Shown in pieces: positions 910 through 18,943 of a stretch of DNA of 64,000 nt. Origin of the DNA: a virus. The stretch is taken from positions 62,001 through 126,000 of IMG/VR virus record IMGVR_UViG_3300032011_000001; one strand, given 5' to 3'. Every line of letters begins with the position of its first letter. Position 1 is the first letter of the stretch. The notes under the pieces are model-generated. The model searched no databases and was not told the origin of the DNA. It saw nothing but the letters and a program-made list of their open reading frames with translations. Both the position numbers and the translations under genes were made by a program.

Positions 910-1218
910 TTACTCCTCTTCAGAAAAAAAAGTTTCTGAGTTTATGTTTTTATCATCAATAAAAATATCGTAATGAGGTTTCCACATCTTCAGCTCATGA
1001 TGCTTGGCTCCCCATTCTGATAACTGTTTGTGAGTTAGTTCTGTCCAGTCTATTCCTGTGTTAGAACCTCTCGCTGTCCAATAAACGACCGTATGACCTT
1101 CGTCGTACAGCTTGTTTATCTTTTCAATTCTCTCCATCCACGGTACCGCATTGTCATACTTTCCCTGTGTGTTGCAACATATCGTACCATCAATATCTAC
1201 ATAATATATTTTTTTCAT
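910..1218 (-). CDS. HAD-superfamily phosphatase-like protein
   Basis: The 102-residue protein starts MKKIYYVDIDGTIC, which is HAD motif I (DxDGT, with the nucleophile Asp near residue 8). VVYWTARGSN in the middle matches motif II (T/S), and YDIFIDDKNIN near the C-terminus matches the motif IV acidic pair. It is a minimal HAD with no visible cap domain. In polysaccharide loci such short HADs are often annotated as sugar-phosphate phosphatases. Here it directly follows the aldolase-like gene, with a 4-nt overlap, at the end of the glycan operon, so a sugar-phosphate substrate is plausible but not shown. Confidence 0.75.
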   Translation of the reverse strand: MKKIYYVDIDGTICCNTQGKYDNAVPWMERIEKINKLYDEGHTVVYWTARGSNTGIDWTELTHKQLSEWGAKHHELKMWKPHYDIFIDDKNINSETFFSEEE

Positions 1219-1982
1219 GTTCTCTCCCCGATCTTCTTTACCCTGTCCATAAAAGACTCTGCCTTTAGAGAGTGAAAGTGTTCTCTTTTGGCCAAAAGCA
1301 TCTGTTCGTATTCGATTGCTTGTTTGATTGCATCATCTATAGACACTCCACTCACCATATCAAAGACTACTGCCCTTGTTTCAAAGCCATCCAAGAGGCC
1401 TTTTTCGTGCATCTCTTCTAGGCGGGGAGCACTTTTCTTGGAGACAGAGCCTCCCATTTTTGTTTTTAGGTTATACTTTTTTGCTGCTGTCAGTGCTTTC
1501 TCTGCGTATACCATGACCAAGTAATCATCAACATTGTTTTTTGATAAGCCAAGAGAGCGCGATAAGTCAGAACGTCCCACTACAATGCCGTCTATGCTTT
1601 TGTGGTGTTCTTTAAGTATGTCCTCTATCTTCTCACATGCTGTCTTTGTCTCGATGTTAATAAACTGTTGTGGCGGCGTGACTTTCAGCAAATCACATCT
1701 ACTTTCCATGGAAGATATAAATTTAGAAACTGCAAATTCACTTTCCACCATTGGTGCGACCACGCCTGCCACGCCGAGCCTTAAACACTTCTCAATGTCC
1801 CTGTTTGCTTCGCATCCACCTATCTTAACGAAGACCTGTAAATCTGGTGTGCCAGCAAGCATAACCAGATCTGTTAAGTCAGAGTCTGTTACTCCCTCGT
1901 CCTCGAAAGAGGCTTTCAGAGCTGAAGCTCCGTACTTCTCTTTCATTAGTGTTATCTTTTGTTTAATCTTATCATTGAACAT
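1215..1982 (-). CDS. HpcH/HpaI aldolase / citrate-lyase-beta-like enzyme
   Basis: I chose the internal ATG (MFNDKIKQK..., 255 aa) because the longer frame starts only at a TTG. Motifs seen are FVKIGGCEANRDIEKCL, VAGVVAPMVESEFA, FINIETKTACEKIEDIL and IVVGRSDLSRSLG. The ETK glutamate and the GRSD aspartate match the metal-binding acids of the HpcH/HpaI (2-keto-3-deoxy acid) aldolase TIM barrel. Such enzymes join or split pyruvate or oxaloacetate and an aldehyde. In this operon it might act on a 2-keto sugar acid or feed precursors to the NeuB-type synthases. The exact reaction is not deducible. Confidence 0.75.
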   Translation of the reverse strand: MFNDKIKQKITLMKEKYGASALKASFEDEGVTDSDLTDLVMLAGTPDLQVFVKIGGCEANRDIEKCLRLGVAGVVAPMVESEFAVSKFISSMESRCDLLKVTPPQQFINIETKTACEKIEDILKEHHKSIDGIVVGRSDLSRSLGLSKNNVDDYLVMVYAEKALTAAKKYNLKTKMGGSVSKKSAPRLEEMHEKGLLDGFETRAVVFDMVSGVSIDDAIKQAIEYEQMLLAKREHFHSLKAESFMDRVKKIGERT

Positions 1983-2646
1983 TTTTAAACTCACTCTCGT
2001 AGATATATTCAGCAAACTTAAAGTCTAAGGCAGTGTCTATATCCATTGCCTCTATTTCATCCAATATTAAGAATGCTGGTTTTTTACCTACGATGTTCTT
2101 ATTTTCCATTATTAAATCTCTGGGACAGATACAAACGCCATAGGTAATTTTATAAATATTTGGCAACTCTTGGCTATTAGGGGAATTACTCGGGTCATAG
2201 TTTAGTGGTTTGCCTCCAAGCCACATGTGATGCTTCATTGTAGACACGGTTGCAACAGAGTCAATACCATGTCCTACCTGAAATGCTCTTTTTGCCTTTT
2301 CTAGAGTCTCTTTGTTTATAAAAGGACTTGTTGGAGGACAATAGGCTATTGCGCCCTCGGACACAATTGTAGTTAAATTACAAAAAAAATCACTAGCAGA
2401 ACAATAGTCGCTAGCATAATATTCCTCCCTCTTATGGGAGCTTATGCCATGTCTTTCTGCAAACTTCAAAATGTCATCCGAGTCCGTAGAGAGTATTATC
2501 TCATCAAAAACTTCCGCTTCCTTGAGAGACTCAATCTTTAGATCCAGCAATGTAGTGTCGCCAAAAGGTCGAACACTCTTGTTGGGCACTCTCTTAGAGC
2601 CTGAGCGCACTGGTATTATAGCTGTTATCTTGCTGGAGCTTCTCAT
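1972..2646 (-). CDS. CMP-sugar synthetase, NeuA/PseF-like (acylneuraminate cytidylyltransferase)
   Basis: The product is 224 aa. The N-terminus AIIPVRSGSKRVPNKSVRPF matches the CTP-binding signature of acylneuraminate cytidylyltransferases (IPARxGSKxxxxKN). Further matches are STDSDDILKFAERHG, AYCPPTSPF and the C-terminal MDIDTALDFKFAE, which carries the metal-binding Asp residues. These enzymes transfer CMP from CTP to a nonulosonic acid such as sialic, legionaminic or pseudaminic acid. It is the best NeuA match of the three cytidylyltransferase-like genes here. It overlaps its upstream neighbour by 4 nt and the aldolase by about 10 nt. Confidence 0.85.
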   Translation of the reverse strand: MRSSSKITAIIPVRSGSKRVPNKSVRPFGDTTLLDLKIESLKEAEVFDEIILSTDSDDILKFAERHGISSHKREEYYASDYCSASDFFCNLTTIVSEGAIAYCPPTSPFINKETLEKAKRAFQVGHGIDSVATVSTMKHHMWLGGKPLNYDPSNSPNSQELPNIYKITYGVCICPRDLIMENKNIVGKKPAFLILDEIEAMDIDTALDFKFAEYIYESEFKNVQ

Positions 2647-3341
2647 AAGTTTGTTGCCCTATAAATGAAGTCCAAGTATTTGAATTGCCACTCATGATCT
2701 ATGTCCAGAGACTCTCTTTCAGATATAGGGAACAGTTCGATATCTCCCTGCTCGGAAAAGTCTCCCATAAAAACGCCGTCGCCGATGGTGGCCATTTCGC
2801 TAGCATACAGACAATGAGCTGCTTCGTATGTGGCTTCAACCGCCTTTGTATTTAAGTTTGGTTCTCCCTCGGGCCACTCGTTCAACATTTTCCCACTCTC
2901 GTTCCAAAAGTAGTTCTTCTTCTCTATGACCGCGAACAAGCCCTTGCTTGGTGTTTGCAAATAGTGTTCGTAAAAGCTATCTATGGTGGATGTCTCCAAA
3001 AATGGATTGCAGGCGTTGACAAGTATGATATACTTATAAGATAGTTTATCCCACCACTCATACATGCCCGTTAACTTAGATCCGGTTCCGCCGTCCCATA
3101 CTGCAGAGTGTTCGCTCCTCTTGAATATATTGACTCCATTTTTTACCCCGACATCTACAAGTTCAGGCTCATTAACGGATAAATAAAAGTTTTCTTTTGG
3201 GATAGCTTTGGAATCCAATATCTTCTTGACTGCGATATCAACCAAATTGGTTCCGCCAAAATCTCTTATCATTTTCCTTTTGCATCTTTCCGAAGAAAGT
3301 CTTGCTTGAATTATCACACATACTTCTGATGGTTTTTTCAT
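2643..3341 (-). CDS. Cytidylyltransferase-like protein (SpsF/NeuA family), paralogue 1
   Basis: The protein has 232 aa. CVIIQARLSSERCKRKMIRDF resembles the GxxGSxRxxxK nucleotide-binding start of SpsF/NeuA-type transferases. VNACNPFLETSTI occupies the place of the usual C/A-P-x-SPF loop, and SLDIDHEWQFKYLD matches the C-terminal IDxxxDF motif. It is clearly paralogous to the gene at 8067-8753 (shared FAVIEKKNYFW, EAAHCLYA, WQF). It probably activates a sugar acid with CTP, although the divergent loop could mean another substrate. It sits in the glycan operon with 4-nt overlap coupling. Confidence 0.75.
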   Translation of the reverse strand: MKKPSEVCVIIQARLSSERCKRKMIRDFGGTNLVDIAVKKILDSKAIPKENFYLSVNEPELVDVGVKNGVNIFKRSEHSAVWDGGTGSKLTGMYEWWDKLSYKYIILVNACNPFLETSTIDSFYEHYLQTPSKGLFAVIEKKNYFWNESGKMLNEWPEGEPNLNTKAVEATYEAAHCLYASEMATIGDGVFMGDFSEQGDIELFPISERESLDIDHEWQFKYLDFIYRATNL

Positions 3342-3689
3342 TTAATCTCCCTTTTCGACCCTATAGCTGTCCTCGTCAAAATGAGTAGTAGAAAACTCAT
3401 ACATCTCTGTGTCCTCTAGCGCGATCATTCTGTGAATAAGGCCAGTGGGGACATGGAAGTTGTCTCCCTTTTCTAAAATGACTTCAGATGCAGTGCTAAT
3501 ATCCTCATCATAAGAATATAATACTCTCAGCTTCCCGCTATGGATATAGAAAACTTCATCTTTAATTTTATGGTAATGCCAAGAACACTTTTTTCCTTTT
3601 ACAAAAAACAAAAGCTTACCGCAGTATTTATCGTTATTGACAATCCATTTTTCATAACCCCAACCTTTGGGGACAAAATTCATTTCCAT
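3342..3689 (-). CDS. Cupin-fold protein (mannose-6-phosphate-isomerase-like / dTDP-sugar isomerase-like)
   Basis: The small 115-aa single-domain cupin shows GWGYEKWIVNNDKYCGKLLF, then CSWHYHKIKDEVFYIHSGKLRVLY (motif 1: H-x-H with a following E) and GDNFHVPTGLIHRMIAL (motif 2: G-x5-P-x-G-x2-H). All likely metal ligands are present. This arrangement is typical of the C-terminal domain of GDP-mannose pyrophosphorylase/PMI-type cupins found alone in sugar operons. It probably isomerises or epimerises a sugar phosphate or nucleotide sugar. Its ATG directly abuts the stop of the previous gene. Confidence 0.8.
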   Translation of the reverse strand: MEMNFVPKGWGYEKWIVNNDKYCGKLLFFVKGKKCSWHYHKIKDEVFYIHSGKLRVLYSYDEDISTASEVILEKGDNFHVPTGLIHRMIALEDTEMYEFSTTHFDEDSYRVEKGD

Positions 3690-4682
3690 TTACAACTCCA
3701 GAGGAAAAAACCTTTTTGAGATCTCTTTGCTCATATTATTATCGTAGTTTTCTCCAATATTTTGATATTTTATCATTCTATTATTATAAGTTAAGAGATA
3801 ATCCCAAAACAAAACTGCTTCTCTTCTTTGAAAATCAAAGTTATAGTTTGCGCTTATCTTCAACTTCTTGTTTGGCTCGAATGCGTGAGCGCCTGCATTA
3901 ATGTTTTCTATCTGCTCTTGTGTCCAGCCATCCCATCCAGCAAATATAACCTTTTTAGCTCCCAAATATGTCGCTAATGTTATCAGCTTTGGAACAGCTC
4001 CCGATGTCAATGATACCCTCTGGTTAAAGAGGAAGCACTTGCACATCTCGTCATAAAATGTCTGGATCATCGACGGGCTTCTAGATATAGAGGTATCTAT
4101 GGCGCAGATAGTGTCGTCTCTCTCTACAACGTCTGCGAACTCTGGTATGTTCATATCAAGCTCTGAGTTAATGTAGCATAGAGATATTTCTCTTTCTTTC
4201 AGTTCCTTGTTTTTGTAGAATGCGTTACAAGTCCACAAGTAATCTCTTTCTACGTTATCGTAGTCAATCTGAAGTGCGGATGGTCCTCCGCCGACGATAA
4301 GTATTGTGCTGTCTCTGTACTTCTTCAGTTCTTCTAAATTTTCACACCACATGTCGCCAGTTCTAGTGACGCTCTTTTGGGGGTGTGTTAAGAACGAACG
4401 ATAAGGTTCCGGTGGCGGGTATCCATGTTTTGCATTTAAAAGAAAGTCTTCTTTTGTTGTTAGCATACTTGCTTCATTAGCGGGATACTTTGAAACTATA
4501 TTGCTATAAGTTTCATCCGGGCCAAAGCACCTTTTGCTTATTTTATCATACCACACATTGTACTCTGGCTCTCTGGCTATTCTTTTCCTAAATTCAGAGT
4601 ATGCACCTTGCCACTCGCTTTCAACAAAAAGTTTATCTTCTCTAGAATTGTATATCTGAATACAGTTGTCTATTTCTAACAA
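3690..4682 (-). CDS. DUF115/MptE-like or GT42 sialyltransferase-like protein
   Basis: This 330-aa protein has a C-terminal Rossmann-like domain that begins ILIVGGGPSALQIDYDNV at about residue 130 and continues DYLWTCNAFYKN. Around residue 225 it shows RVSLTSGAVPKLITLATYLG followed by AKKVIFAGWDGW. The order GxGPS, CN.FY, TSG and LG.K.I...G.D is shared by GT42 sialyltransferases (CstI/CstII) and by DUF115/Maf motility accessory factors that transfer pseudaminic acid to flagellin. The first ~120 residues are unassigned. In a locus with NeuB and NeuA homologues, a nonulosonic-acid transferase is the natural guess. An MptE-like pyrophosphokinase fold with another role remains possible. Confidence 0.6.
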   Translation of the reverse strand: MLEIDNCIQIYNSREDKLFVESEWQGAYSEFRKRIAREPEYNVWYDKISKRCFGPDETYSNIVSKYPANEASMLTTKEDFLLNAKHGYPPPEPYRSFLTHPQKSVTRTGDMWCENLEELKKYRDSTILIVGGGPSALQIDYDNVERDYLWTCNAFYKNKELKEREISLCYINSELDMNIPEFADVVERDDTICAIDTSISRSPSMIQTFYDEMCKCFLFNQRVSLTSGAVPKLITLATYLGAKKVIFAGWDGWTQEQIENINAGAHAFEPNKKLKISANYNFDFQRREAVLFWDYLLTYNNRMIKYQNIGENYDNNMSKEISKRFFPLEL

Positions 4683-4692
4683 AGCAGGCTCT

Positions 4693-6351
4693 CTATTTCT
4701 CTATGATATATTTTCCAACGACCAAGACATCAATGTTTGTACTCATAAAGCATTTGTACGCATCTTCACAGTCGTTTACAATAGGTTGCCCCTTCACGTT
4801 AAATGAAGTATTAAGCAAAATGGGGTATCCAGTTTGCTTGTTGAAAGTCTCTATCAAGGTTCTATATCTCGGGTTAAGTGAGTGGACAGTCTGTACCCTA
4901 GCAGAATTGTCAACATGAATAACTGCACCGATGTCCTCGACTTTATCCTCTCGACATTGGACTGCCCTTAGCATATGAGGGCTATCATATCTTATCTCAA
5001 ACCATTCTCTTGCTTCCTCTGCCAAGACAGAGGGCGCGAAGGGCCGAAAAGCTTCTCTAAATTTAACACGGGCGTTTACATGATCTTTTATCGCAGAGGG
5101 AAATGGCTTTGCCAAAATACTTCTATTGCCTAAAGCTCTTGGCCCAAACTCAGCGCCACCTTGCACCCACCCTATTATTTTTCCTTCTTCTAACCTCTGG
5201 GAAACCAGTGAGAAAGCTTCATCTGCTTCCACATAGGTTATTTCCTCTCTGTCTAGAAAAGATTTTATTTCTTCGTCTGTTTGACGGTGGCCAAGAAAGA
5301 AATCGTGATACTTCCCGATCTCTACTTTGCCTCTTCTGGACAAACTCAAATAGGCTGCTCCGATGGAAGTTCCATTGTCTCCGGATGCAGGAGGTACGAA
5401 GATCTCATCGAAAATGTTCTTGCTTTCTATCTTGCCGTTAAGAGAGCAGTTCAAGCCAACCCCGCCTGAAATGCACAGTTTGTCCACTTCGTACTCTTTT
5501 CGTAACAGTGTCAGTTGCTCTAGAACAATCTCTTCTAGTCTGTCTTGCAGTGCTGCAGCAATGTTCTTATGGTTGTCTGTTATTTCGTCTTCCCACTTTT
5601 TAAGTGGACCAAACATAGAGATAAACTCGTCACTAACAAATTTGTCTCTCTCTTTGTGAAAAGAAAACCATTTTTTATTTATTTCGATGTCGTATCCATT
5701 TACATTGACCATCTCCCTAAAGACATCAATATATCTCTTATCTGTATTTGGAATAGTTTCTCTGCTGTTTCCTAATGGAGCAAGGCCCATGACAATTCCC
5801 TCGTCACACATTGGTTTCCATCCAAGATAAAATGTTATAGCAGAGTAAAAAAGACCCAATGAGTTGGGCCATGGGTTCCCCTTGTGTATTACTTTTATCT
5901 CTCCATTGACGGCCATGGCCATCATGGAGCAGTGGGTTTCTCCAATGCCATCGTTGCTATATAGGAGAGCAGTATCAAAGCCGCTTGGATAATAAGAACT
6001 TGCCACATGACACAAGTGATGGTGATTAAAATCAACGTCACCGTCATATCCAATTTGCTCTTTTAGTATTCTTACATACTCTTTTTCTGAAGGGAGATCC
6101 CTTCTCATTTTTCTTACCTGCCCAGAGGCTTTAAGAAGAATGGAAGGCTTGTAGGAAAAGCTAACAACATCTATATCGGAAATTTCCAAAGAGGCAATCT
6201 TCAAACAATCATTAATTGCATTCTTTGGAAAGTCTCTTGTGTGCTTATCCCCACAGTACCTCTCCTCTTCGCAGGCGGCCACGAGTTTGCCGTTCTTTAA
6301 AAGAGCTGCAGATGTGTCGTGGCCACCATAATTAATTCCTAAAATATTCAT
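4693..6351 (-). CDS. Sugar O-carbamoyltransferase, NodU/CmcH/TobZ family
   Basis: The product is 552 aa, close to the family norm of ~550-600. The N-terminal Kae1-like domain opens MNILGINYGGHDTSAALL and contains HHHLCHVASSYYPSGF, whose histidines are the metal ligands, and LYSNDGIGET. The C-terminal YrdC-like portion shows LCISGGVGLNCSLNG, VPPASGDNGTSIGAA, EFGPRALGNRSIL and YPILLNTSFNVKGQPI. All signature motifs are intact. These enzymes make carbamoyl-adenylate from carbamoyl phosphate and ATP and transfer the carbamoyl group to a sugar hydroxyl. In the glycan operon it would add a capping decoration to the nonulosonic acid or another sugar. Confidence 0.9.
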   Translation of the reverse strand: MNILGINYGGHDTSAALLKNGKLVAACEEERYCGDKHTRDFPKNAINDCLKIASLEISDIDVVSFSYKPSILLKASGQVRKMRRDLPSEKEYVRILKEQIGYDGDVDFNHHHLCHVASSYYPSGFDTALLYSNDGIGETHCSMMAMAVNGEIKVIHKGNPWPNSLGLFYSAITFYLGWKPMCDEGIVMGLAPLGNSRETIPNTDKRYIDVFREMVNVNGYDIEINKKWFSFHKERDKFVSDEFISMFGPLKKWEDEITDNHKNIAAALQDRLEEIVLEQLTLLRKEYEVDKLCISGGVGLNCSLNGKIESKNIFDEIFVPPASGDNGTSIGAAYLSLSRRGKVEIGKYHDFFLGHRQTDEEIKSFLDREEITYVEADEAFSLVSQRLEEGKIIGWVQGGAEFGPRALGNRSILAKPFPSAIKDHVNARVKFREAFRPFAPSVLAEEAREWFEIRYDSPHMLRAVQCREDKVEDIGAVIHVDNSARVQTVHSLNPRYRTLIETFNKQTGYPILLNTSFNVKGQPIVNDCEDAYKCFMSTNIDVLVVGKYIIEK

Positions 6352-6361
6352 GTTTACCTTT

Positions 6362-7243
6362 TTACACTACCATAACATTAGGGGTAAAGTATCTAAGTTT
6401 GTTTGCGACCTCAACTTCGTGCTTTAAGAAGTGTTTCTGGCCAGTGCCAAGGGTGTTTACGACTTGTCTGGAAACATCTACCAACTCTTTAAGTTCGCCC
6501 TCCTCAATAGAGGCAGATTGGTCCGAACCATACATGCTTCTGTCCAGCGTGATGTGCCGCTCTAATGCTTTAGCGCCATAGGCGACTGCCAAGATAGACG
6601 GAAATATTCCTTGTTCGTGACCGCTGTATCCCACAGGGACGTTGTACTTTTCTGCAAGAGTTTTAACTGCCAAAATATTGCAGTCTTCATTTTTGCAAGG
6701 GTAGGTAGAAACACAGTGAAGCAAAGTAAACTCGCACTCATGTGAGTTAAAGATCATCATTGCTTTCTCGATGTCAGAAGAATTGCACATCCCTGTCGAG
6801 ATAAACGTGTGCTTTTTCTCTGAAGCTATCTCATTTAAAAGTTCTTCGTATGTCAACATGGCCGAGGCCACTTTGTTAAAAGACACATCGTATTGTCTCA
6901 AGAAGTGTTGGCTCTTTATGTCCCATGCCGATGCAGTCCATAAGATACCTTTTTCTTTACAATATTCAGAGATCTGATCATACTCTTCTTTTCCGAATTC
7001 TAAGCCTTCTTTTTGATCTCTCTGTGTAGTCCCCCAGGGAGACTGTCTACTGGATTTTAAATATTCCTGTGTGTAAACAGTATCAATATCTCTTTTCTGA
7101 AACTTGACTGCTTGGCATCCCGAACGTACTGCCGCATCTATCAACTTCTTTGCAACCTCAATATCACCATTGTGGTTGATGCCGATCTCGGCAATAAAAA
7201 ATGGATTATTGACTGTCTTTTCATATGGATTAAATTTGCTCAT
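6362..7243 (-). CDS. NeuB-type nonulosonic acid synthase, short form without SAF domain
   Basis: This 293-aa protein starts PFFIAEIGINHNGDIEVAKKL, with QAVKFQKR after it, the hallmark N-terminus of NeuB/PseI/LegI TIM barrels. Later come TFISTGM, LLHCVSTYP, VGYSGHEQG and ALERHITLDRSMYGSDQ, which include the metal and PEP-binding residues. It condenses PEP with a six-carbon amino sugar. It ends shortly after the barrel at YFTPNVMVV, so it lacks the C-terminal antifreeze-like SAF domain that normally lends an arginine to the partner active site. The second NeuB-like protein (9523-10524) has that domain. Either the short form is active alone, as some homologues may be, or the two work together. 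Confidence 0.85.
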   Translation of the reverse strand: MSKFNPYEKTVNNPFFIAEIGINHNGDIEVAKKLIDAAVRSGCQAVKFQKRDIDTVYTQEYLKSSRQSPWGTTQRDQKEGLEFGKEEYDQISEYCKEKGILWTASAWDIKSQHFLRQYDVSFNKVASAMLTYEELLNEIASEKKHTFISTGMCNSSDIEKAMMIFNSHECEFTLLHCVSTYPCKNEDCNILAVKTLAEKYNVPVGYSGHEQGIFPSILAVAYGAKALERHITLDRSMYGSDQSASIEEGELKELVDVSRQVVNTLGTGQKHFLKHEVEVANKLRYFTPNVMVV

Positions 7244-7257
7244 TCTTATTTTTCCTT

Positions 7258-8070
7258 TTATAATTCTTTAAACGGAAGAACCCTGTTTAAATATGACATA
7301 TTGTCGGGTGCACTTGTGTAAATGTTCATCCCATGCAACTCCTTCCATTGTAACCACTTTTTCAAAATATTTAAAGGTATTTCCAAACTTTTTTCCATTT
7401 CGCCATTTTGAGACTCATCTGACCAAGGGTGCCTGTCGTCGTCGTTATAAAATCTAGGGCCAAACATATCAAAACCTAATATGCAAATCTCCTTTGCGCC
7501 CAGTGCATAGCAGATGGGAAAGACAGCACTACTAAGCTTGTTTTCAAGTCCCCACTTGTATTGTAAGCCGATAACAGATTCGCTATCAAATTCTATAGAA
7601 CCCACTATAGTTTCAGGGTGCATAAATCTGTAATATGCGCCTTCTGTAAAGATATCTTCTTCTGGAAAACTCTTAGAGTTGTTTTTAATATATTTTGTAG
7701 TAGTACACTTCACTTCCTCTATATTATATTTTTCCGAAACTTTCTCTATGAGTTCCTCAAACATTTTCCACCCTCCTGGAATTCTCATTAGAGGTGTAGT
7801 GCCGCAGTATCTTCTGTATTCGGGAAACCCTTGTTTGAAGAATGATGGTATAATGATTCTCATGTCGGAGAATTCTTGTGTTTCGTTTTTCAACAAATAT
7901 TCAAAACCCTCCACATAAGCAAACGGGTCTGCACTAAACCATATATCCGGAACGATACCTAGTCTTTCGTGACAGTGGGGAAAGGTTCTTTGGAAGGCCA
8001 TTATTTTTTCCCCGTCTTTTTTCTTTGCCAGTTTTGTACTAAGGCCTGGTCCTATCACTAATATGTTCAT
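7258..8070 (-). CDS. DUF115/GT42-like putative sugar transferase
   Basis: The product is 270 aa. It begins MNILVIGPGLSTKLAKKKDG, continues HERLGIVPDIWFSADPFAYVEG, and toward the C-terminus shows SSAVFPICYALGAKEICILGFDMFG followed by a His/Asp-rich loop (DDDRHPW). The GPG start, LGAKEI..LG.D motif and final strand (NIYTSAPD) parallel the other DUF115/GT42-like proteins here. Those families include sialyltransferases and flagellin pseudaminyl transferases. ATG overlaps the stop of the upstream cytidylyltransferase (8067-8753) by 4 nt, so donor synthesis and transfer may be coupled. The similarity is weaker than for the 3690-4682 gene. Confidence 0.5.
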   Translation of the reverse strand: MNILVIGPGLSTKLAKKKDGEKIMAFQRTFPHCHERLGIVPDIWFSADPFAYVEGFEYLLKNETQEFSDMRIIIPSFFKQGFPEYRRYCGTTPLMRIPGGWKMFEELIEKVSEKYNIEEVKCTTTKYIKNNSKSFPEEDIFTEGAYYRFMHPETIVGSIEFDSESVIGLQYKWGLENKLSSAVFPICYALGAKEICILGFDMFGPRFYNDDDRHPWSDESQNGEMEKSLEIPLNILKKWLQWKELHGMNIYTSAPDNMSYLNRVLPFKEL

Positions 8071-8753
8071 CGTTCTTCATCTTTCTTTTTCTTGTAGAGT
8101 GACTCGCACAATTCAAACTGCCATTCGTAGTCTACGTCTAGCGCCTCTTTTTCTTCCATGGTCCACAGTTTGACGTCACCCTGCTTTGTGAGATCGCCCA
8201 TCCAGATGTCGTTACCAATATCCTCTATAGAGCCAGCATACAGACAGTGGGCTGCTTCTCTAACTGGGGCTGCTGACTTTGTATTCATATTTTCTGAAAA
8301 TGGTGTCAACAGCTTTCCATCTTCTTGCCAAAAATAGTTTTTCTTTTCTAGGACAGCAAACATGCCATTCTTATCGGTGCTCAAGTAGTCGCTGTAAAAA
8401 CGCTCTATTGTGGACGTATTAAGAAATGGGCAGCATGCACTAACCATGACAATGTTTTTGAAGGGTATCTTGTCCCACCATTCAAAAATTTCTGTTATCG
8501 GATCTCCTTCAGAGTTCGCAGACTTCTCACTTCGACGAAAGATATTGACAGGATATTGTTTTACCTTTTCAAGCAACTCCTCTTCGTATACCGAACAATA
8601 GATATTTTCGTTTGGTATATTAGATGATACCAGTTTCTCTAAAAGAATGTCCATGAGAGTCGTATCGTGAAATTTTCTAGTCATCTTTCCTGGGCATCTC
8701 TGAGAAGAAAGTCTTGCTTGTACCATGAGTGCCACTTCCTTTTTCTTTTTCAA
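8067..8753 (-). CDS. Cytidylyltransferase-like protein (SpsF/NeuA family), paralogue 2
   Basis: The 228-aa protein has ALMVQARLSSQRCPGKMTRKF at its N-terminus, VSACCPFLNTSTI in mid-protein and ALDVDYEWQFELCE near the end. It shares order and many residues with the gene at 2643-3341, including FAVLEKKNYFW and EAAHCLYAG, so the two arose by duplication. The expected role is CTP-dependent activation of a sugar acid. Two such copies plus the NeuA-like gene suggest more than one activated sugar. It overlaps both neighbours by 4 nt. Confidence 0.75.
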   Translation of the reverse strand: MKKKKEVALMVQARLSSQRCPGKMTRKFHDTTLMDILLEKLVSSNIPNENIYCSVYEEELLEKVKQYPVNIFRRSEKSANSEGDPITEIFEWWDKIPFKNIVMVSACCPFLNTSTIERFYSDYLSTDKNGMFAVLEKKNYFWQEDGKLLTPFSENMNTKSAAPVREAAHCLYAGSIEDIGNDIWMGDLTKQGDVKLWTMEEKEALDVDYEWQFELCESLYKKKKDEER

Positions 8754-9523
8754 GTCTCTCCTCCTGCATCGTTTTCCGACAGTTCTTCCAATAGTTCATT
8801 TACAATTCTGTCGCACTCTTTTATATCTTTGAAGATCTCTCTTGCTCTGTCTGGTGCTAGCTCGAAACACAACCTGACTGCATCCATCCAGTTTACGTTG
8901 TTTCTCTCTCTTATCTTCTGCACGTCGTCAATTATATCTTTATCTGTTCTTTCCTTCAGAAAACCGTCTATAGAGGAAACCTGAGTGTTCCAGCCATCTT
9001 TCTCTAACAAATGCATGTGTGGTTCTTTGTGCTTCATTCTATGGGTATTACCCTCGCTGATATCTTGTTTCATTCTTTTATATTTTCTTTTCTTTATGTA
9101 ATACCATTTTTCAATAAACAAATTAATAAGATTATCATTAAGTTTCTGATAGGAGGAAGACAGTGTATCACTTTTATTAAAAGACACTTCTCTTTGAAAA
9201 ATTACATCCCCAGTGTCAACGCCTGCATCGACATGGTGGATAGTCACCCCTTTTGGGGTTCCCTCAAGAAAGCTCCACAAGTTAGGGTCAGAACCCCTGT
9301 TCCAAGGCAACATAGAGATATGAAGGTTGATAATATTATCCCCAGACTCATCAATTATATTTTGCTTTATGATGTGCCTATATCTGTAACTTATGCATAG
9401 TTCTATGTTATTTTCAGTAATGAACCCTGGCTCTATCTTTTCTGAGGTGTAAACAACTTCGTTGCCTTCTTCTAAAAAGTCTTTCAGTTCGTATGGCTCT
9501 ACTCCAAGATACAAAATTTTCAT
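8750..9523 (-). CDS. Formyltransferase-fold enzyme (10-formyl-THF-dependent sugar N-formyltransferase-like)
   Basis: The product is 257 aa. The core NLHISMLPWNRGSDPNLWSF followed by GVTIHHVDAGVDTGDVIFQ is the formyltransferase signature, with the catalytic Asn-His pair (N-x-H) and downstream Asp (D in DTGD). Family members transfer a formyl group from 10-formyltetrahydrofolate to methionyl-tRNA, to sugars such as dTDP-Qui4N, or in other pathways. The last ~100 residues are charged and helical and not typical of methionyl-tRNA formyltransferase. With an aminotransferase in the same operon, the likely acceptor is an amino sugar. No PseH-like acetyltransferase is present, so formylation may replace acetylation. 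Confidence 0.8.
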   Translation of the reverse strand: MKILYLGVEPYELKDFLEEGNEVVYTSEKIEPGFITENNIELCISYRYRHIIKQNIIDESGDNIINLHISMLPWNRGSDPNLWSFLEGTPKGVTIHHVDAGVDTGDVIFQREVSFNKSDTLSSSYQKLNDNLINLFIEKWYYIKKRKYKRMKQDISEGNTHRMKHKEPHMHLLEKDGWNTQVSSIDGFLKERTDKDIIDDVQKIRERNNVNWMDAVRLCFELAPDRAREIFKDIKECDRIVNELLEELSENDAGGET

Positions 9524-10524
9524 TATCCCAGATCCTCTCTTCTGATTACGGTTCCCGGTGCTATATCTCTGAGTGTCTTACTTCCGATGATCTCCCTATA
9601 GGAGCTAGCAGGAACAGCCCCTTCAAGAAATGGGCGACTTGTGGTTATATTTTCCTGTGTAAGTTCTTGACCTTTTTTTATTTCTTCTTTGGAAATAACA
9701 GAACGTCTTGCCATTTTAAAATCTTTTTCTGAGTCGGTATATTCCGACTTCTTTCTTTTCAGAGAAAGTTCTGCCAAGGAAATCTCTTCGTTCATCTTCT
9801 TTAAATCATTCGGCTCCATAGCAAACGGATGATCAGGGCCTGGTAGTTTATTAGAAATTGTAAAGTGCTTTTCTATTGTTGTTGCCCCTACCATAACTGC
9901 TAAGGCAGGAGTTATGGTGCTCATTGTATGATCAGACAAACCCACCTTCACTCCCTGTTTACCATACTTTTCTAGTATGTCCTTTACCATCAACAGGTTT
10001 ATATCTTCCTGGGGTGTTGGATATGCATTGTTACAATGGAGAATTGTTATGTCGTAGTTGCTTTGCTTATGACATGTGTCTATTATTTCTTGAATAAAGT
10101 CTATGTGACAGCCTATACCTGCAGATATAATAAGCGGCAATTTTGTTGCTGCCACCATTTCAACAAAGCGCAAGTCTGTTGATTCAAAGCCAGCAATCTT
10201 CATCCTCTTTACGCCAACATCGCAAAGTTGCTGAATGGCTTCTTCGTCAAATGGTGTTGCCATAAACTCTATGTTCTTTTTATCACAATATTCTTTTATT
10301 TTAGGAACCCACTCTCTCGGCAGCTCAAGCGTTTTCATGAGGGCGTTTATGTCCCCATAGCCTGCAAAGTTTGGTGTGTTTTCTGCATATAAAGTTTTTG
10401 AAGAAAATATTTGAAACTTTACTGCTTGTGCGCCAGACTCTTTGGCCACGTCCACAAGAGCATATGCCTGTTCGAGACTCTTATTGTGATTTGAGCCTGC
10501 TTCTGCGATAACAAAAGTATTCAT
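9523..10524 (-). CDS. NeuB/PseI/LegI-type nonulosonic acid synthase with SAF domain
   Basis: The 333-aa protein starts FVIAEAGSNHNKSLEQAYAL and AQAVKFQIFSSKTLY, then IEFMATPFDEEA, MKIAGFEST, ISAGIG, ITILHCNNAYPTP, VGLSDHTM, TIEKHFTISNKLPGPDHPFA and finally RRSVISKEEIKKGQ with PGTVIRREDL, the C-terminal SAF (antifreeze-like) domain. All features of a complete PEP-dependent sialic-acid-type synthase are present. It should make a nine-carbon nonulosonic acid from a 2,4-diamino or 2-amino hexose and PEP. The exact sugar (Neu, Leg or Pse type) cannot be read from sequence alone. Stop and start overlap with neighbours show it is inside the operon. Confidence 0.9.
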   Translation of the reverse strand: MNTFVIAEAGSNHNKSLEQAYALVDVAKESGAQAVKFQIFSSKTLYAENTPNFAGYGDINALMKTLELPREWVPKIKEYCDKKNIEFMATPFDEEAIQQLCDVGVKRMKIAGFESTDLRFVEMVAATKLPLIISAGIGCHIDFIQEIIDTCHKQSNYDITILHCNNAYPTPQEDINLLMVKDILEKYGKQGVKVGLSDHTMSTITPALAVMVGATTIEKHFTISNKLPGPDHPFAMEPNDLKKMNEEISLAELSLKRKKSEYTDSEKDFKMARRSVISKEEIKKGQELTQENITTSRPFLEGAVPASSYREIIGSKTLRDIAPGTVIRREDLG

Positions 10525-11525
10525 AGTACAGATATTATATATTCAATCTGCTCTTTTGTTAAGTTATGGTGTATGGGGAAGTTCACTATCTTTGGATGAA
10601 CTTTCTCTGCATTGATCAATATTGTTCTCTGCTTCATCGCCGTCGTCTTGTGGAGAAGTGGGTACAACCTAGATGTGTTAAGTTTTTTCATTATATCTTC
10701 TGAGTTCTCTCTCAGTGCTGAACCGATGTAGTAAGAAGAATTTGGAGAATGCTGAACCAAGGGTTTATCCACCATTTCGGAAATATACTCGTAGTTTTCT
10801 TTTCTCCTCTCGCGGAGTTCTTCATATACTCTCATACTTTCCAGGCCAAAGGTTGCATTCAAGTTGTTCATATAAAACTTAAAGCCATTCATAACTATGT
10901 CGTAGGTATTTCCAGCATTTTTTCTACCAAAGTTTCTAAAAGAACGAAAATACTCAGAGGCGGAATCGTGGTTTGTGGAAATCATCCCTCCGTCGGATGT
11001 GCATATCGGCTTCATTGGATGAAAGGAAAAGAACGAAAAGTCACACTCTAAACTTGGTGTAACGCAGTGGGCAGAGTCTACAACAACTATTTCATCACCC
11101 ACCAGGTTCCATCCCTTTATGTTATCAACTCCACCGTATAATACAGGCATGACAACCTTGGGGTTGACTGAGTTTGTGTTTCTTCTCTTTATTCTATAAT
11201 CTTTACAGTCGAACTGTAGCTCTTTTGTTATGTCCACATAGTGAACTGTGTGTCCGACGTGTTTAGCTGCCCAAGCAGGAGATATAAATCCCAGGGTTGT
11301 GGTGTAGACCTCGCAGGGACCATACTGTTCATAGAGGTAATAAAAGATCATGAAGGCGGCTGCACTAGCAGAGTTAGTGGCTATATTGTTTTTCTTTTGC
11401 GAGAAGCTCTTAAACTTGTTCTCAAACTCAACAACATTGGGGCCAAAGCCCAAGTTTCCACTCTCGATGGTCTTTGATATTTTATCGTAACTATCTCTGA
11501 GGAAAAATGGTTCGTATATCTTCAT
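10521..11525 (-). CDS. DegT/DnrJ/EryC1/StrS-family PLP aminotransferase
   Basis: The product is 334 aa, slightly short for the family (~370). Seen are NNIATNSASAAAF, DEIVVVDSAHCVTPS with the PLP-ring Asp, and FSFFSFHPMKPICTSDGGMI, where the Lys of HPMKP takes the place of the internal aldimine lysine. RNFGRKN and FYMNNLNATFGLESM follow as in family members. Such enzymes aminate 4-keto or 3-keto nucleotide sugars and would act after the PseB-like dehydratase gene just upstream (11525-12511). The pair recalls PseB-PseC or LegB-LegC. Start and stop overlap neighbours by 1-4 nt. Confidence 0.85.
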   Translation of the reverse strand: MKIYEPFFLRDSYDKISKTIESGNLGFGPNVVEFENKFKSFSQKKNNIATNSASAAAFMIFYYLYEQYGPCEVYTTTLGFISPAWAAKHVGHTVHYVDITKELQFDCKDYRIKRRNTNSVNPKVVMPVLYGGVDNIKGWNLVGDEIVVVDSAHCVTPSLECDFSFFSFHPMKPICTSDGGMISTNHDSASEYFRSFRNFGRKNAGNTYDIVMNGFKFYMNNLNATFGLESMRVYEELRERRKENYEYISEMVDKPLVQHSPNSSYYIGSALRENSEDIMKKLNTSRLYPLLHKTTAMKQRTILINAEKVHPKIVNFPIHHNLTKEQIEYIISVL

Positions 11526-12511
11526 TAGCTGCTCTCTTTGGTTCCCCTAGAGATAAGTTCCAGCAGAACATTAACATCGTCGCTCATGTGAAGAGATGAA
11601 TTGAATTCAGTTCCTTCATATTTCTTCCACTTGGCCCTGTTCGTTCTTTTCGTATATTGTGGTCTAACACAAAGAAGGTTTAGGTTTGCCACTTCGTAAG
11701 TAAACGGCAGTTCTGTTTCCGCCAACATATCTTCGTGAAGCTTTTCTCCTGGTCTTAGTCCTACTATTTCCTTCTCGAAAGAAGAACCATGAAGTTTTTC
11801 GATTGCCTTCAGGATAGTTTCCATTCCATATGATTTAATCTTCGGAATAAAGACCTCGCCACCTTCACTAGCCTCGACTGCGTTCAGGACCGTATCTACG
11901 GCATCCTCAAGCGTAAACAAGAACCTACTCATATCCAGAGAGGTAACTTTTATTTTCTCGTTAGAAGCGAGCAGAGAGAGCCACAGGGGTATAAATGAAC
12001 CACGGCTAGCTATAACATTACCATACCGGACAGAAGAGAACACAGTTTCCGTGGAATGATAGTCATAATTGGTAAAGAAACGCTCTGCAATAAATTTAGA
12101 AGAACCATATACATTAACCGGAAGACATGCTTTGTCGGTGGATACAAGAACACACTTCTTTATATCATTTAAAAGTGCGGCTTTTGCAACATTCTCAGAA
12201 CCAAGTACATTGGTATTGACACATTCATCTGGGTGGAATTCCATATCGTCTATTCTCTTTAATGCAGCAGTGTGGATGATAAGGTCTGGTTTTGTTCTTT
12301 TTAGGGTAACATTAAATTTGTCAAAGTCTCTAATATCCCCGATAACACAGTGAACCGAGCTACCGCCATAAATTAATGCTTGCTTTCCCTCATCCCTAGA
12401 AAAGATGATGATCTGGTTTCCTTGTTTTACCAGCCTTTTTGTCAGTGCTTTTCCTAGTGAGCCTGTCCCCCCTGTTATTAGGATCTTTTTTCCCGTTATG
12501 TTTTTGTGCAT
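11525..12511 (-). CDS. UDP-sugar 4,6-dehydratase, PseB/LegB/CapD-like (extended SDR)
   Basis: The 328-aa protein starts KILITGGTGSLGKALTKRL, a Rossmann GxxGxxG motif. It has IIHTAALKRIDDME, VLVSTDKACLPVNVYGSSK with the TDKA and YxxxK catalytic elements, then SVRYGNVIASRGSFIPLW and EIVGLRPGEKLHEDML. These are signatures of inverting or retaining UDP-GlcNAc 4,6-dehydratases that begin pseudaminic and legionaminic acid synthesis. The length fits the short soluble PseB type and not the membrane-anchored PglF/CapD type. It feeds the DegT-type aminotransferase immediately downstream. Confidence 0.88.
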   Translation of the reverse strand: MHKNITGKKILITGGTGSLGKALTKRLVKQGNQIIIFSRDEGKQALIYGGSSVHCVIGDIRDFDKFNVTLKRTKPDLIIHTAALKRIDDMEFHPDECVNTNVLGSENVAKAALLNDIKKCVLVSTDKACLPVNVYGSSKFIAERFFTNYDYHSTETVFSSVRYGNVIASRGSFIPLWLSLLASNEKIKVTSLDMSRFLFTLEDAVDTVLNAVEASEGGEVFIPKIKSYGMETILKAIEKLHGSSFEKEIVGLRPGEKLHEDMLAETELPFTYEVANLNLLCVRPQYTKRTNRAKWKKYEGTEFNSSLHMSDDVNVLLELISRGTKESS

Positions 12512-14514
12512 TATATCTTTACTCTCTCGATGTCTTCACTAGCTTGGTTGATATCTGAACATATTTTTAAGGTGCATCCTTTTTCGCTTAACCATTTTGA
12601 CCACTTGCCAATTGCCTCAACGGAGATGCGCTCCTCTTCTTTGAGTTTTTCCATAGGCACGATGGACATGGTATCATTTTCTTGAATAAAATCTTTTTTA
12701 TCAAAAGATGTTCCGCTTTTAGTGTAGAAGTGTTGCTTCTCTTTATCAGCGCCGATAAGTCTGTTATCATAACCCACTGTTACTATCTCAGATAGACCTA
12801 AGTGTTCAACAAGGTAAATGACTGCTTCTGTCATAATGCCGGGACCATATGGCCGTAGAACCTTTTGCTTTTCAAGAGTCCAATCTTCATATTCGTCAGT
12901 TGATGCCAGAGAATTTGCAAAGTCCCTCTCTTTGATAAAGAATTTCAAATCGCATTGCCCCAATCTATAAGGGGTAGATGAAGCCTCCATAACAAGAGGA
13001 TGCTTTTTATTATAGTCATAGTGTTTGAAGTTGGCACAATTATAAACGTGAAAGTCTACAAACTCACCATACAAGTCATAAGCTTGCTTTACTGATATGC
13101 AAATGTTTTCTTCAAGCAGTTTTTTTAACTTTTCTTGATCGTTGTCCAACAGAGTTGGTCCACAAGAAACAATATATGCCTTTTCTCCCTTTAGAGAATC
13201 TTTTAAGAATCTCAACTTCTCGTTCTGAGAAGGGATTTCTCTACATTTTTCTACTATAAAATCTGCTTTCTTTTTTCCCTCTAGCTTATCAGCCTCTTCT
13301 CTTAAAGCAGGAATAGGATCGACGTACTCCACATGGCCCATCGCATCCATAAACTGTGCCATTACTTTATCTGGGCTATGTTTTTCGAGCAATATTTTTT
13401 GAAGCTTGTTTGCTTGACTCTTTAGTCTAGTATGCTCCTTGGCCATCTCTTCTATTCTCTGCTGAAATGATACCTTCTTTGGAAAGCACCACGATGCATA
13501 AGGCTCTATAACACCTTTCCAGTGTGCCTCTTTTTGTACTCTTCCCATCTCAAATTGAACATTTGAAAAATATTTCTTTTTCTTTTTCTTTCCTTTTTCT
13601 TCCTGCGTTAAGAAGTCCATCTGTCCAGACCAGCCTGGGGCTATCACCGGAAGGCCATGATAGGCTGCTTCAAATAAAGGAAGCCCATATCCCTCGCCAT
13701 GGGCCAGGCTGACCATTGCTTTCACTTTATCGTGTTGCAACAAAGATGACATCTCTTCCTCTGTCATCCTTCCATGCAGAAGGTGCACTTTGCACTTTCT
13801 AGTTGGATATTTATTCAATATAGATGAGATCTTGTGTTTCGTATGCATGAGGTCTAACTCTGAATTTCCTGCCATGCCGGTCTTTAAGATAAGGCCCACA
13901 TCTTCTCTATCATGAAACTTCTCAATAAACCACATTATGGTGTTTTCAACGTTCTTTCTTACGCCCATAAGGGCGACGAGCAGAAAGTTAAAGTCAGAGG
14001 AAAAGTCTATATCAAGCTTCTTTTCTGAGATCTCTTTTACTGGGTATCCGACAACATCCACAGGAGTATTTAACGCTAGTTGAGCTCCGCCGCCTGCATC
14101 AAGCGAAGTGTCCAAGAGTCCACTTTTAGCATGTTCTGATACAACAATTACCTTATTCATCAAATTGCACTTCTGAATCCACTCTGGTGAGATCTGGTCG
14201 CATTCAATTCCTGCAGTGCATCCGATATTATAATTTGCCACCTCATTATTGAACTCATTCGGGATAGTCACTTGCAAGGATATGTCGAACGCCTGATCTG
14301 CTGGTGGTTTGGTTGTCAGTTTGTCGGCCAACTCTGTCATCCATCGGCCTTCGTCTGTATCTGGAAACTCCCATGAGGTTTGGCCCCAGTTTAAAGGATG
14401 AAGATAAATATCATAAGTATTCTCGTGTTCTCGAAGTGATCTAAGAACAAAGCGACAATGCTCTCCGTAACCTGATGCGCTAAATGCTGGCCCTATTACG
14501 ATTACTGTTTTCAT
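12511..14514 (-). CDS. GT4-type glycosyltransferase fused to a DUF115/GT42-like domain
   Basis: The start at MKTVIVIGPAFSASGYGEHC gives 667 aa and a 4-nt ATGA overlap with the upstream glycosyltransferase stop. Residues 1-~420 are a GT-B glycosyltransferase, with KVIVVSEHAKSG, FLLVALMGVRKNVENT, then the acidic signature AHGEGYGLPLFEAAYHGLPVIAP. Residues ~440-667 are a different domain beginning AYIVSCGPTLLDND, followed by FHVYNCANF and RPYGPGIMTEAVIYLVEHLG with IVTVGYDN. That matches the GPS / CN / TSG-like / LG..I...G.D order of the other DUF115/GT42-like genes. A fused protein could add two successive sugars, the second possibly a nonulosonic acid. Confidence 0.75.
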   Translation of the reverse strand: MKTVIVIGPAFSASGYGEHCRFVLRSLREHENTYDIYLHPLNWGQTSWEFPDTDEGRWMTELADKLTTKPPADQAFDISLQVTIPNEFNNEVANYNIGCTAGIECDQISPEWIQKCNLMNKVIVVSEHAKSGLLDTSLDAGGGAQLALNTPVDVVGYPVKEISEKKLDIDFSSDFNFLLVALMGVRKNVENTIMWFIEKFHDREDVGLILKTGMAGNSELDLMHTKHKISSILNKYPTRKCKVHLLHGRMTEEEMSSLLQHDKVKAMVSLAHGEGYGLPLFEAAYHGLPVIAPGWSGQMDFLTQEEKGKKKKKKYFSNVQFEMGRVQKEAHWKGVIEPYASWCFPKKVSFQQRIEEMAKEHTRLKSQANKLQKILLEKHSPDKVMAQFMDAMGHVEYVDPIPALREEADKLEGKKKADFIVEKCREIPSQNEKLRFLKDSLKGEKAYIVSCGPTLLDNDQEKLKKLLEENICISVKQAYDLYGEFVDFHVYNCANFKHYDYNKKHPLVMEASSTPYRLGQCDLKFFIKERDFANSLASTDEYEDWTLEKQKVLRPYGPGIMTEAVIYLVEHLGLSEIVTVGYDNRLIGADKEKQHFYTKSGTSFDKKDFIQENDTMSIVPMEKLKEEERISVEAIGKWSKWLSEKGCTLKICSDINQASEDIERVKI

Positions 14515-15776
14515 AGCTCTACGTGCCTCCATGTTTCATAATTTTTTCTAGTTTCCCAAGAGCCATGCTCCTCGGCGACTCGCTCAAAGATGTCTTGCCA
14601 TTGTTTGTTAAAATTATCAAAGTTATAATTTTTCAAGACATGTTCTCTGCCTTTTTTGCCCATCTCTCTTCGTTCTTTTTCAGACATATTAATAAACTTC
14701 TCTAGGCATTCAATAAGGTCATCTTCGTTTATTCGGTCCTCGTAGATATATGGTATTTCTTGTGAACCAATAATTGCCTTTGAAGAAGGCTCAATACCAA
14801 AGCCAAACCATTCTTCTCCATCTGTAACTTGTTCTTGTAAGCCGCCTGTCATATTAACTATGATGGGGCGCTCAGCCGACAGACTCTCAAGAGTCGCGAG
14901 GCCGAAGCCCTCGGCGTCGCTTATGTTTATGGTACAGTCAATGCAGTTATACAAAGTGCCCATATTTTCAGGAGGTAGTTTTTGAGTGGAGAACTTTACT
15001 TGACCTTCTGTAAGTTTTAGATATCCCAAAATTGCATCTAGGTCTTGGCCATGAACATCCTTAACATCTGTGTGCATAAGTAACATAGCTTTGTCGTGAC
15101 CTACTTTATCTAGAAACTTTTTAAACCAAAAAATCAAAGAACCACTTTGTTTTCTCCTGGCGTTTCTATTGTTCCAAAAAAATATTACTTTTTCGGAGTT
15201 ATTGTTGGTTAGTTCCTGCCTCATCCTGCGAACATCTTCGTTGTCATCTGGGAGTCTTTTGAAGATCTCTGAGTCTACAGCGTGAGGCACCCTCTCTCTG
15301 TCTACATTTGGTGCAAGAGTCTTGACAATATCGTCAGTGACCTTACTGATCGTAGCTATAAAATCATTTGAGCGGTACCACACTGAATTGTAATCTGGGT
15401 ATGGATAGTTGTCCCAGACATGATAATACAAAAGTGGACACTTAGATCTTATCTCGTCTTCCATCGACCACAGCCAACCATAAAATCTTGGGTCTGTCAT
15501 GATCCAAACAAAGTCTGGCTTGTCCGTATTGATAATGGACCTGACCATTTCTTTTGTTCCGTATCCATCTACTGGTTTTATTAGCCAGTCTTGGCCGAAC
15601 TCTTCTACGCTTTGTAGACGATAGTCAATGTGTTTTATAGCTCCGGCCAAGGAAAGTATTTTATATTTTCCTGTCCTAAGCAGAGCTTCACAAACGTACT
15701 TTGTTTGTGTTCCGACGCCACTTGGTGAAAGAGGGTGGTCGGAAATTGTTAAAATAGTTTTTTTCTTTTCGGACAT
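14511..15776 (-). CDS. Group 1 (GT4-like) glycosyltransferase
   Basis: This 421-aa GT-B enzyme shows TILTISDHPLSPSGVGTQTK at the N-terminus, FIATISKVTDDIV and VPHAVDSEIFKRLPDD at the domain linker, FFWNNRNARRKQSGSLI, and DAEGFGLATLESLSAERPIIV as the acidic EX7E-type signature. It uses a nucleotide-sugar donor. It is the second gene of the long leftward operon after the nuclease-like gene, and its stop overlaps the next start. The acceptor is unknown: host envelope glycan, flagellin or a virion protein are all possible. Confidence 0.85.
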   Translation of the reverse strand: MSEKKKTILTISDHPLSPSGVGTQTKYVCEALLRTGKYKILSLAGAIKHIDYRLQSVEEFGQDWLIKPVDGYGTKEMVRSIINTDKPDFVWIMTDPRFYGWLWSMEDEIRSKCPLLYYHVWDNYPYPDYNSVWYRSNDFIATISKVTDDIVKTLAPNVDRERVPHAVDSEIFKRLPDDNEDVRRMRQELTNNNSEKVIFFWNNRNARRKQSGSLIFWFKKFLDKVGHDKAMLLMHTDVKDVHGQDLDAILGYLKLTEGQVKFSTQKLPPENMGTLYNCIDCTINISDAEGFGLATLESLSAERPIIVNMTGGLQEQVTDGEEWFGFGIEPSSKAIIGSQEIPYIYEDRINEDDLIECLEKFINMSEKERREMGKKGREHVLKNYNFDNFNKQWQDIFERVAEEHGSWETRKNYETWRHVEL

Positions 15777-15788: not shown

Positions 15789-16571
15789 TTATGGACAATG
15801 CTCCGTTCTGTGAAAGGCGCATGTGCGGCACGATAAGCGGTTCTTAAACCAACGCTCACTATCGACATTGTACACTGCATCACTCAACATTTTAAGAGCA
15901 TTATTTATTTTCTTTTCGCCGTTTGCAACTTCGACGAATTCAACTTCGTTTTTCTTCGCAGTTCTTTTTAACAAAGCAAAATAAGTTTTAATGTTTTCCT
16001 TGGGAATCCCGAGGGCTTCAGAGACAAAGTGTTTGTAATATGAAAGCTGATAAGTGGTCATGGTGTCTGCCTTCTTTCTAGCATCCCATCCCCACGAACA
16101 AGTCTTCCAATCTATAACGTGATATGTGTCTCCGGTTTTGATAATGAGATCGACATAACCAACAAAGTCGTATTCATCGGTGGTGTCGAATTCTAGGTCC
16201 CTTATCTTTTCTCTTATTTCGTATTCAGCATCAACAACTTTGAATTCCCCAAACCTCTTCTTGAGTTCTGGGTATACCAAGTGTGATAGCTTTTTTCCTT
16301 GTTCTAGAAATTCATAATAGGTATCTTCATCATATTCTTCTATTACATCTTGTGGTAGTTTTTTCATTTCTAGGAAATATTGTTTCTCGAAGATAGCTTC
16401 GTGATTTACATTATTGTTTTTAAGTACTGCGTTCTCACACAATGTGTGGAGAGCCGTACCAAAAGCAGTGTAGATATTTCCCTGAAAAGCTTTTAGCTTA
16501 TCTACTCTTGTAAGTTTATAATAGAAAGGACAGAATTTCCAGTCTTTGATACCCGAAAAAGATAAATGCAT
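15789..16571 (-). CDS. PD-(D/E)XK nuclease, Cas4/RecB-like with probable Fe-S cysteines
   Basis: The internal ATG was chosen because AGGAG lies 5 nt before it and the promoter at 16591-16619 sits just upstream, giving 260 aa. MHLSFSGIKDWKFCPFYYKLTRV is the typical start of RecB/AddB/Cas4-type domains, and AFGTALHTLCE follows. The catalytic core is DEYDFVGYVDLII then YHVIDWKTCSW (D, D-x-K). QLSYYKHF matches the motif QxxxY. One Cys near residue 14 plus CRTCAFHRTEHC at the C-terminus gives four cysteines placed as in Fe-S Cas4-like nucleases. It likely processes DNA ends during replication or recombination. It is first in the glycan operon, which is an odd partner. Confidence 0.85.
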   Translation of the reverse strand: MHLSFSGIKDWKFCPFYYKLTRVDKLKAFQGNIYTAFGTALHTLCENAVLKNNNVNHEAIFEKQYFLEMKKLPQDVIEEYDEDTYYEFLEQGKKLSHLVYPELKKRFGEFKVVDAEYEIREKIRDLEFDTTDEYDFVGYVDLIIKTGDTYHVIDWKTCSWGWDARKKADTMTTYQLSYYKHFVSEALGIPKENIKTYFALLKRTAKKNEVEFVEVANGEKKINNALKMLSDAVYNVDSERWFKNRLSCRTCAFHRTEHCP

Positions 16572-16590
16572 ATTTACTCCTTGAGGTATT

Positions 16591-18927: not shown

Positions 18928-18943
18928 TAACATTCCTTACACT

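Follow-up and report, generated by a model that had tools for sequence, protein, structure and literature searches.

A large marine-type tailed phage carries an operon that encodes two predicted nonulosonic-acid (NulO) modules. In the reading that we favour, to which we assign a probability of roughly 55%, this cassette would make CMP-NulOs that are attached to host surface glycans as a variable, serotype-like trait. That phages alter nonulosonic acids made by their hosts, and that they carry genes for surface glycans, was already known; here, one phage appears to encode most of two synthesis routes together with likely transferases. The locus is a source of candidate synthases and sialyltransferases, and it offers a system in which to test why marine phages devote ~15 kb to sugar chemistry.

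The window, the 64,000-nucleotide stretch that was analysed, comprises bases 62001-126000 of a virus record of 158,153 bases. Sixteen co-directional genes on the minus strand run from 15776 to 910 of the window, abutting or overlapping and free of internal stops; their order of transcription is that of Table 1, beginning with the two GT4 genes and ending with a small HAD gene. An earlier note on this DNA had proposed a phage-borne NulO operon. All of the genes that it named are present as intact, tightly packed reading frames, with Pfam matches to NeuB (two, one of them with SAF), CTP_transf_3 (three), Formyl_trans_N, Carbam_trans_N and Carbam_trans_C, DegT and Polysacc_synt_2. The run is longer than had been listed: it reaches the HAD gene at 910 and also contains cupin and HpcH/HpaI aldolase genes. 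The genes previously described only as transferase-like correspond to two GT42-like genes (3690-4682 and 7258-8070) and a GT4-MptE-like fusion (12511-14532).

Table 1. Predicted features of the operon and its flanks, in order of transcription (window coordinates)
Position	Strand	Feature	Evidence
15789-16619	-	PD-(D/E)XK nuclease, conserved left flank	PF12705 E 7e-18; flank in related phages
14511-15776	-	GT4 glycosyltransferase, constant component on the left side of the island	Glycos_transf_1 E 4e-10; PHROG 2170 glycosyltransferase
12511-14532	-	GT4 with C-terminal MptE-like/Maf-like fusion	Pfam GT4-conflict; MptE-like E 4e-6
11525-12511	-	PseB-like UDP-GlcNAc 4,6-dehydratase, inverting type	NCBIfam PseB best; motif STDKA..YGSSK intact
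10521-11525	-	PseC-like DegT aminotransferase	NCBIfam PseC best; PLP-lysine motif FSFHPMKPICTSDGG intact
9523-10524	-	NeuB/PseI-type synthase with SAF	PF03102 E 4e-69; SAF E 2e-11; PDB matches SpsE, PseI, NeuB
8750-9523	-	PseJ-type sugar N-formyltransferase	Best PDB match PseJ 6ci2 E 8e-50; N-x-H and D motifs intact
8067-8753	-	Cytidylyltransferase 1, SpsF-like	PF02348 E 3e-8
7258-8070	-	GT42 sialyltransferase-like	AlphaFold pLDDT 72; fold matches
6362-7243	-	SAF-less NeuB synthase	PF03102 E 7e-72; SAF absent
4693-6351	-	NodU-type carbamoyltransferase	Carbam_trans_C E 3e-68, Carbam_trans_N E 1e-53; PHROG 1601 E 8e-124
3690-4682	-	GT42 sialyltransferase-like	Family profile to CST-I/CST-II; fold to CST-II
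3342-3689	-	Cupin, possible sugar isomerase/epimerase	Cupin_2 E 3e-10; cupin-NeuB fusions in other viral loci
2643-3341	-	Cytidylyltransferase 2, SpsF-like	PF02348 E 2e-12
1972-2646	-	Cytidylyltransferase 3, NeuA/PseF-like	PF02348 E 2e-16; NeuA structures E 1e-13
1215-2015	-	HpcH/HpaI aldolase-family protein	PF03328 E 8e-12
910-1218	-	Small HAD-family protein, right end of the island	Motifs DIDGT, WTARG, FIDDK; weak HAD_PNKP
456-716	-	FmdB-like zinc ribbon, conserved right flank	Zn_ribbon_8 E 1.5e-5, under cut-off; related phages
134-454	-	Small protein, right flank before sigma-like gene	Same place in related phages

The source is a genuine large tailed phage of lytic type. The record carries genes for the large terminase (TerL), portal, head maturation protease, baseplate wedge, UvsX and SSB, and the same terminase family was matched in 12 of 17 sampled records (the record itself and 16 relatives). 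Fifteen of the operon's genes recur in an independent contig, L009, where the proteins are 41-75% identical to those of the window, one gene has a different position, and the small-protein and sigma-like genes again come next. The recurrence of this gene set with its downstream genes makes a chimeric assembly very unlikely. In all 15 genes common to the window and L009, amino-acid change is far below silent change; synonymous sites were saturated, so this comparison yielded no dN/dS value. The T4 late-promoter pattern TATAAATA was not in excess in the window and had no same-strand match just upstream of the operon.

Module 1, which comprises the PseB-like and PseC-like genes, the SAF-bearing synthase, the PseJ-type formyltransferase and a cytidylyltransferase, is a near-complete predicted route to an N-formyl pseudaminic-type sugar. 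The best NCBIfam matches of the dehydratase and the aminotransferase were PseB (264 bits, E 1e-78) and PseC (105 bits, E 4e-30), under the respective equivalog cut-offs of 408 and 424 bits; the synthases and cytidylyltransferases likewise score under theirs. The C-terminal SAF domain of the synthase, inspected for the substrate-contacting arginine, has an RP motif. For the formyltransferase, the PseJ structure was far ahead of other PDB matches, while the best NCBIfam models were other sugar formyltransferases with modest scores; through this enzyme the N-acyl step of the pseudaminic pathway (PseH or PseJ) is represented. In the viral relatives L033, L040, L063 and L066, a GNAT protein with PseH as its best NCBIfam match lies next or next-but-one after the SAF-type NeuB, and in L009, L034 and the window a formyltransferase occupies the slot after that gene. 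Acetyl and formyl variants of one step thus appear to trade places, which fits a pseudaminic-type route. ATP-grasp proteins with a HAD-like end also occur in this slot (L033 13767-14987 and L040 13898-15121).

The PseB-, PseC-, PseJ-, NeuB/PseI- and cytidylyltransferase-like genes adjoin one another in almost the order of the bacterial pathway (PseB-PseC-PseH/PseJ-PseG-PseI-PseF). The phage version differs in being phage-borne, in scoring under the equivalog cut-offs, in the addition of a second synthase and two transferases, and in PseG: no TIGR03590 or Epimerase_2 match, indicative of a PseG-, NeuC- or LegG-type hydrolase, was found in the 158-kb record, which may be incomplete.

Module 2 is predicted to consist of the SAF-less NeuB, its cupin and cytidylyltransferases. 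Cytidylyltransferase 3 matched NCBIfam PseF with an E value of 2e-26, under the cut-off. The NeuB domains of the two synthases scored 242 and 233 bits against a curated PF03102 cut-off of 22. According to the alignment, both keep the equivalents of E25, K53, K129, H215, H236 and D247 of N. meningitidis NeuB, which we take to be metal- and PEP-site residues. The SAF-less copy additionally keeps the equivalents of S132 and Y186, and Met replaces Glu134. A HAD gene lies near the viral SAF-less NeuB in 19 of 48 loci; HAD was dropped as an invariable pathway phosphatase, since in many phages its gene marks the island's right flank. Viral NeuB also comes in a third form, ~487 aa long and ending in a cupin domain, which was observed near SAF-less NeuB and GT42-like genes (L019 8788-10251, L033 16473-17930, L038 11645-13120 and L039 12244-13713).

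To place the synthases, we used a NeuB tree built by a quick method, with SH-aLRT supports and no bootstrap. Viral SAF-type synthases formed a separate, virus-only clade of eight (SH-aLRT 99). The viral SAF-less sequences, except for two with long branches, all fell in one clade (SH-aLRT 97), within which 29 grouped without bacteria (support 92). With moderate support, most viral SAF-less synthases appear to constitute their own clade; the copy in the window groups with those of L009, L010 and L011, in a section of the tree where viral and bacterial sequences intermingle. Both synthases lie within NulO synthase families with their catalytic residues kept, and neither outcome that the earlier note had named against itself, homologues outside these families or active-site loss in all copies, appeared. 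Its suggestion of two different sugars is backed by the comparison: the two synthases come from separate deep clades, and either module can be found alone in other phages. Placement in Neu, Leg or Pse clades succeeded in part: the SAF-bearing route is Pse-like, and the SAF-less route could be assigned to none of the three.

The SAF-less NeuB has 54 relatives in viral contigs and many in bacteria, where homologues are frequent in the surface-sugar clusters of marine species. This bacterial abundance is what would be expected if the operon had no function for the phage and consisted of common host genes being carried along, or of a bacterial fragment joined on by mis-assembly. We regard that explanation as having a negligible chance of being correct: the same gene set in the same position relative to downstream genes in L009, the low amino-acid relative to silent change in 15/15 shared genes, the virus-only NeuB clades and the hallmark phage genes on the same record all argue against it.

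The products of 3690-4682 and 7258-8070 are probably sialyltransferase-like enzymes, as predicted from profiles and structural models. Single GT42-like proteins gave at most a sub-threshold match to the Pfam CST-I model, so that a family profile was needed, and a close-relative search with the protein alone returned only the copy in its own record. The profile of 3690-4682, built from 31 viral sequences, ranked CST-I and CST-II at the top of its PDB matches (E 4e-8), with the first non-sialyltransferase at E 0.013 and MptE at E 0.16. Its AlphaFold model (pLDDT 90.6) had CST-II as the top Foldseek match (E 1.2e-5), followed by MptE (8sd5) and a P. multocida sialyltransferase; a Maf structure was a weak fold match. 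For the 7258-8070 model, the 13 best PDB fold matches were all GT42 sialyltransferases (CST-I, CST-II and P. multocida; best E 2.6e-4). TM-scores were only ~0.4-0.5, and we therefore call both proteins GT42-like. They share with CST-I and CST-II the GPS and N-x-F-Y motifs near the N-terminus, but at very low identity. In the alignment, the conserved His266 of the family lies near a CMP-contacting Tyr, and no equivalent of CST-II's catalytic base histidine could be located. In L033 (19344-20840) and L040 (17899-19521), a GT42-like protein of the 7258-8070 type is fused to a PhyH-type dioxygenase, a hint of sugar hydroxylation.

Among non-redundant loci with a SAF-less NeuB, a GT42-like gene occurred within 4 kb in 35 of 48 viral but 1 of 63 bacterial cases, a contrast biased towards viral matches by a profile made from viral sequences. 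This proximity suggests that synthesis is tied to transfer in phages. The phage SAF-less NeuBs thus resemble those of marine bacteria and Leptospira (chain 6ncs) in having the same domain without SAF, often with a cytidylyltransferase nearby, and differ from the marine bacterial ones in that most form their own clade beside GT42-like genes.

Homology supports a scheme of synthesis, CMP activation and transfer. The PseB-like, PseC-like and PseJ-type enzymes would convert UDP-GlcNAc to a UDP-4-formamido sugar. Once UDP had been cleaved off, by a hydrolase of the host or one that went unrecognised, the SAF-bearing NeuB would combine the sugar with PEP to yield a 7-N-formyl pseudaminic-type acid. 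The SAF-less NeuB and cupin, possibly with the HAD and HpcH proteins, would make a second NulO. Cytidylyltransferases would convert both to CMP-NulOs, which the GT42-like proteins would attach together with the GT4s, and the NodU protein may carbamoylate the product. The likeliest acceptor would be the surface glycan of the infected host, altering receptors against superinfection or against loss of progeny to debris. We favour the host surface on the basis of the GT42 precedent, since to our knowledge the GT42 enzymes described so far use lipooligosaccharide as their acceptor, and of the general practice of phage glycan genes.

The close runner-up as acceptor, possible but in our judgement on the unlikely side, is the phage's own virion, whose proteins would receive NulOs while still in the cytoplasm and thereby gain a shield or a determinant of adhesion. 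In that case, protein or a GT4-built glycan would be the substrate of the Maf-like/MptE-like domain and the GT42-like enzymes. The C-terminal domain of the 12511-14532 fusion, which the GT42-like profile picked up with an E value of 1e-13, is of a type shared with Maf enzymes, which glycosylate flagellin with NulOs, and 3690-4682 itself has the weak Maf match. The island also adjoins sigma-like and baseplate genes, and in mycobacteriophages phage enzymes are known to glycosylate the virion (as cited in PMC12619734). Against decoration of the virion stand the lipooligosaccharide acceptor of GT42 enzymes and the fact that no acceptor protein was identified.

A sugar destined for DNA hypermodification, rather than for a surface NulO, is a further and very improbable explanation. 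Phage glycosyltransferases can hypermodify DNA (likewise cited in PMC12619734), and carbamoyltransferases of the NodU type are an established phage family. However, no base-modifying gene was recognised among the Pfam matches of the operon genes, and the enzymes are of the CMP-NulO type with sialyltransferase-like transferases.

The host-surface reading, with its serotype-like variation, draws on the setting of the operon. Viral NeuB genes recur between a left flank of PhoH, PD-(D/E)XK, GT4 and GT4 and a right flank of, often, HAD, then FmdB, a small protein and a sigma-like gene. In seven distinct phages with both flanks, the islands measure 9.8-15.1 kb and the flank proteins are 37-63% identical, whereas of the 12-18 genes in the interior only 5-7 find a homologue with ≥35% identity in any other phage. 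We also examined an unselected sample anchored on the nuclease instead of NeuB (39 non-redundant loci, each with ≥8 kb of downstream sequence). A GT4 gene lay within three genes of PD-(D/E)XK in all 39; NeuB was present in four, and NeuB, GT42-like and cytidylyltransferase genes occurred together in three. Some islands were nearly empty (L168, L178, L204, L219 and L186, the last with a shorter tail; L212 is without even GT4 labels). The fixed flanks, with exchanged and nearly empty interiors, indicate that the NulO operon is one cassette of a swappable locus, whose layout is, by analogy, like that of bacterial O-antigen and capsule loci. Together, the virus-only synthase clades and the swappable island would imply long phage ownership and diversifying selection. 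More tentatively, and at less than even odds, a large group of marine phages may carry a capsule-locus-like glycan island in which a pair of glycosyltransferases stays constant and sugar cassettes can be exchanged, some of them encoding enzymes that make, activate and transfer phage-specific sialic-acid-type sugars that give each phage or infected cell a glycan 'serotype', possibly on the virion.

Pelagimyophage host recognition clusters, defined by tail fibres, glycosyltransferases and LPS genes, are likewise hypervariable, surface-glycan-rich regions of marine T4-like phages (PMC7029224); sialic and neuraminic terms and sialyltransferase are absent from the text of that paper. In Acinetobacter, prophage enzymes alter nonulosonic acid on the host capsule (EpaA/EpaB, PMC12053666; O-acetyltransferases, PMC6586298). 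Those enzymes modify host-made NulO, whereas the phage described here encodes synthesis, activation and probably transfer. Among the Pfam matches of the operon genes there was no GtrA flippase or membrane GtrB domain of gtrABC-type serotype conversion. Of 50,697 GenBank phage records, only 3 matched one or other of the two NeuB queries and none matched the GT42-like protein, and PHROGs gave no NeuB family match. Within the open-access (PMC) literature that was searched, no account of NulO synthesis by phage genes turned up, and we do not claim priority. In one unannotated marine Kyanoviridae genome, MH319754.1 (L159 7859-10142), DegT, SAF-less NeuB and HAD genes are adjacent, with a psbA-like protein nearby (by eye).

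Several other features were seen alongside. A ACTATTTATA-like motif, perhaps a phage promoter element, lies 9-18 bases before several minus-strand gene starts, including that of PhoH upstream of the island (window 18933-18951, 31932-31943, 36938-36948 and 62971-62981; L006 near 8643). The window also encodes a lysine 2,3-aminomutase-like radical SAM protein (22193-23611, by eye) and, at 61031-62971, a protein with D/N-rich putative metal-binding repeats (DDDCNGxIDD) and a possible von Willebrand-type region, which had no PHROG match. Chaperonin, IMP dehydrogenase-like, PolIII-alpha-like and Lon-like proteins were noted by eye in L006 (2830-4407, 9349-10416 and 13381-16821) and L007 (10604-12940). 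In L005 (470-4867), four tandem paralogues of ~360 aa lie near tail genes and are possibly receptor-binding variants.
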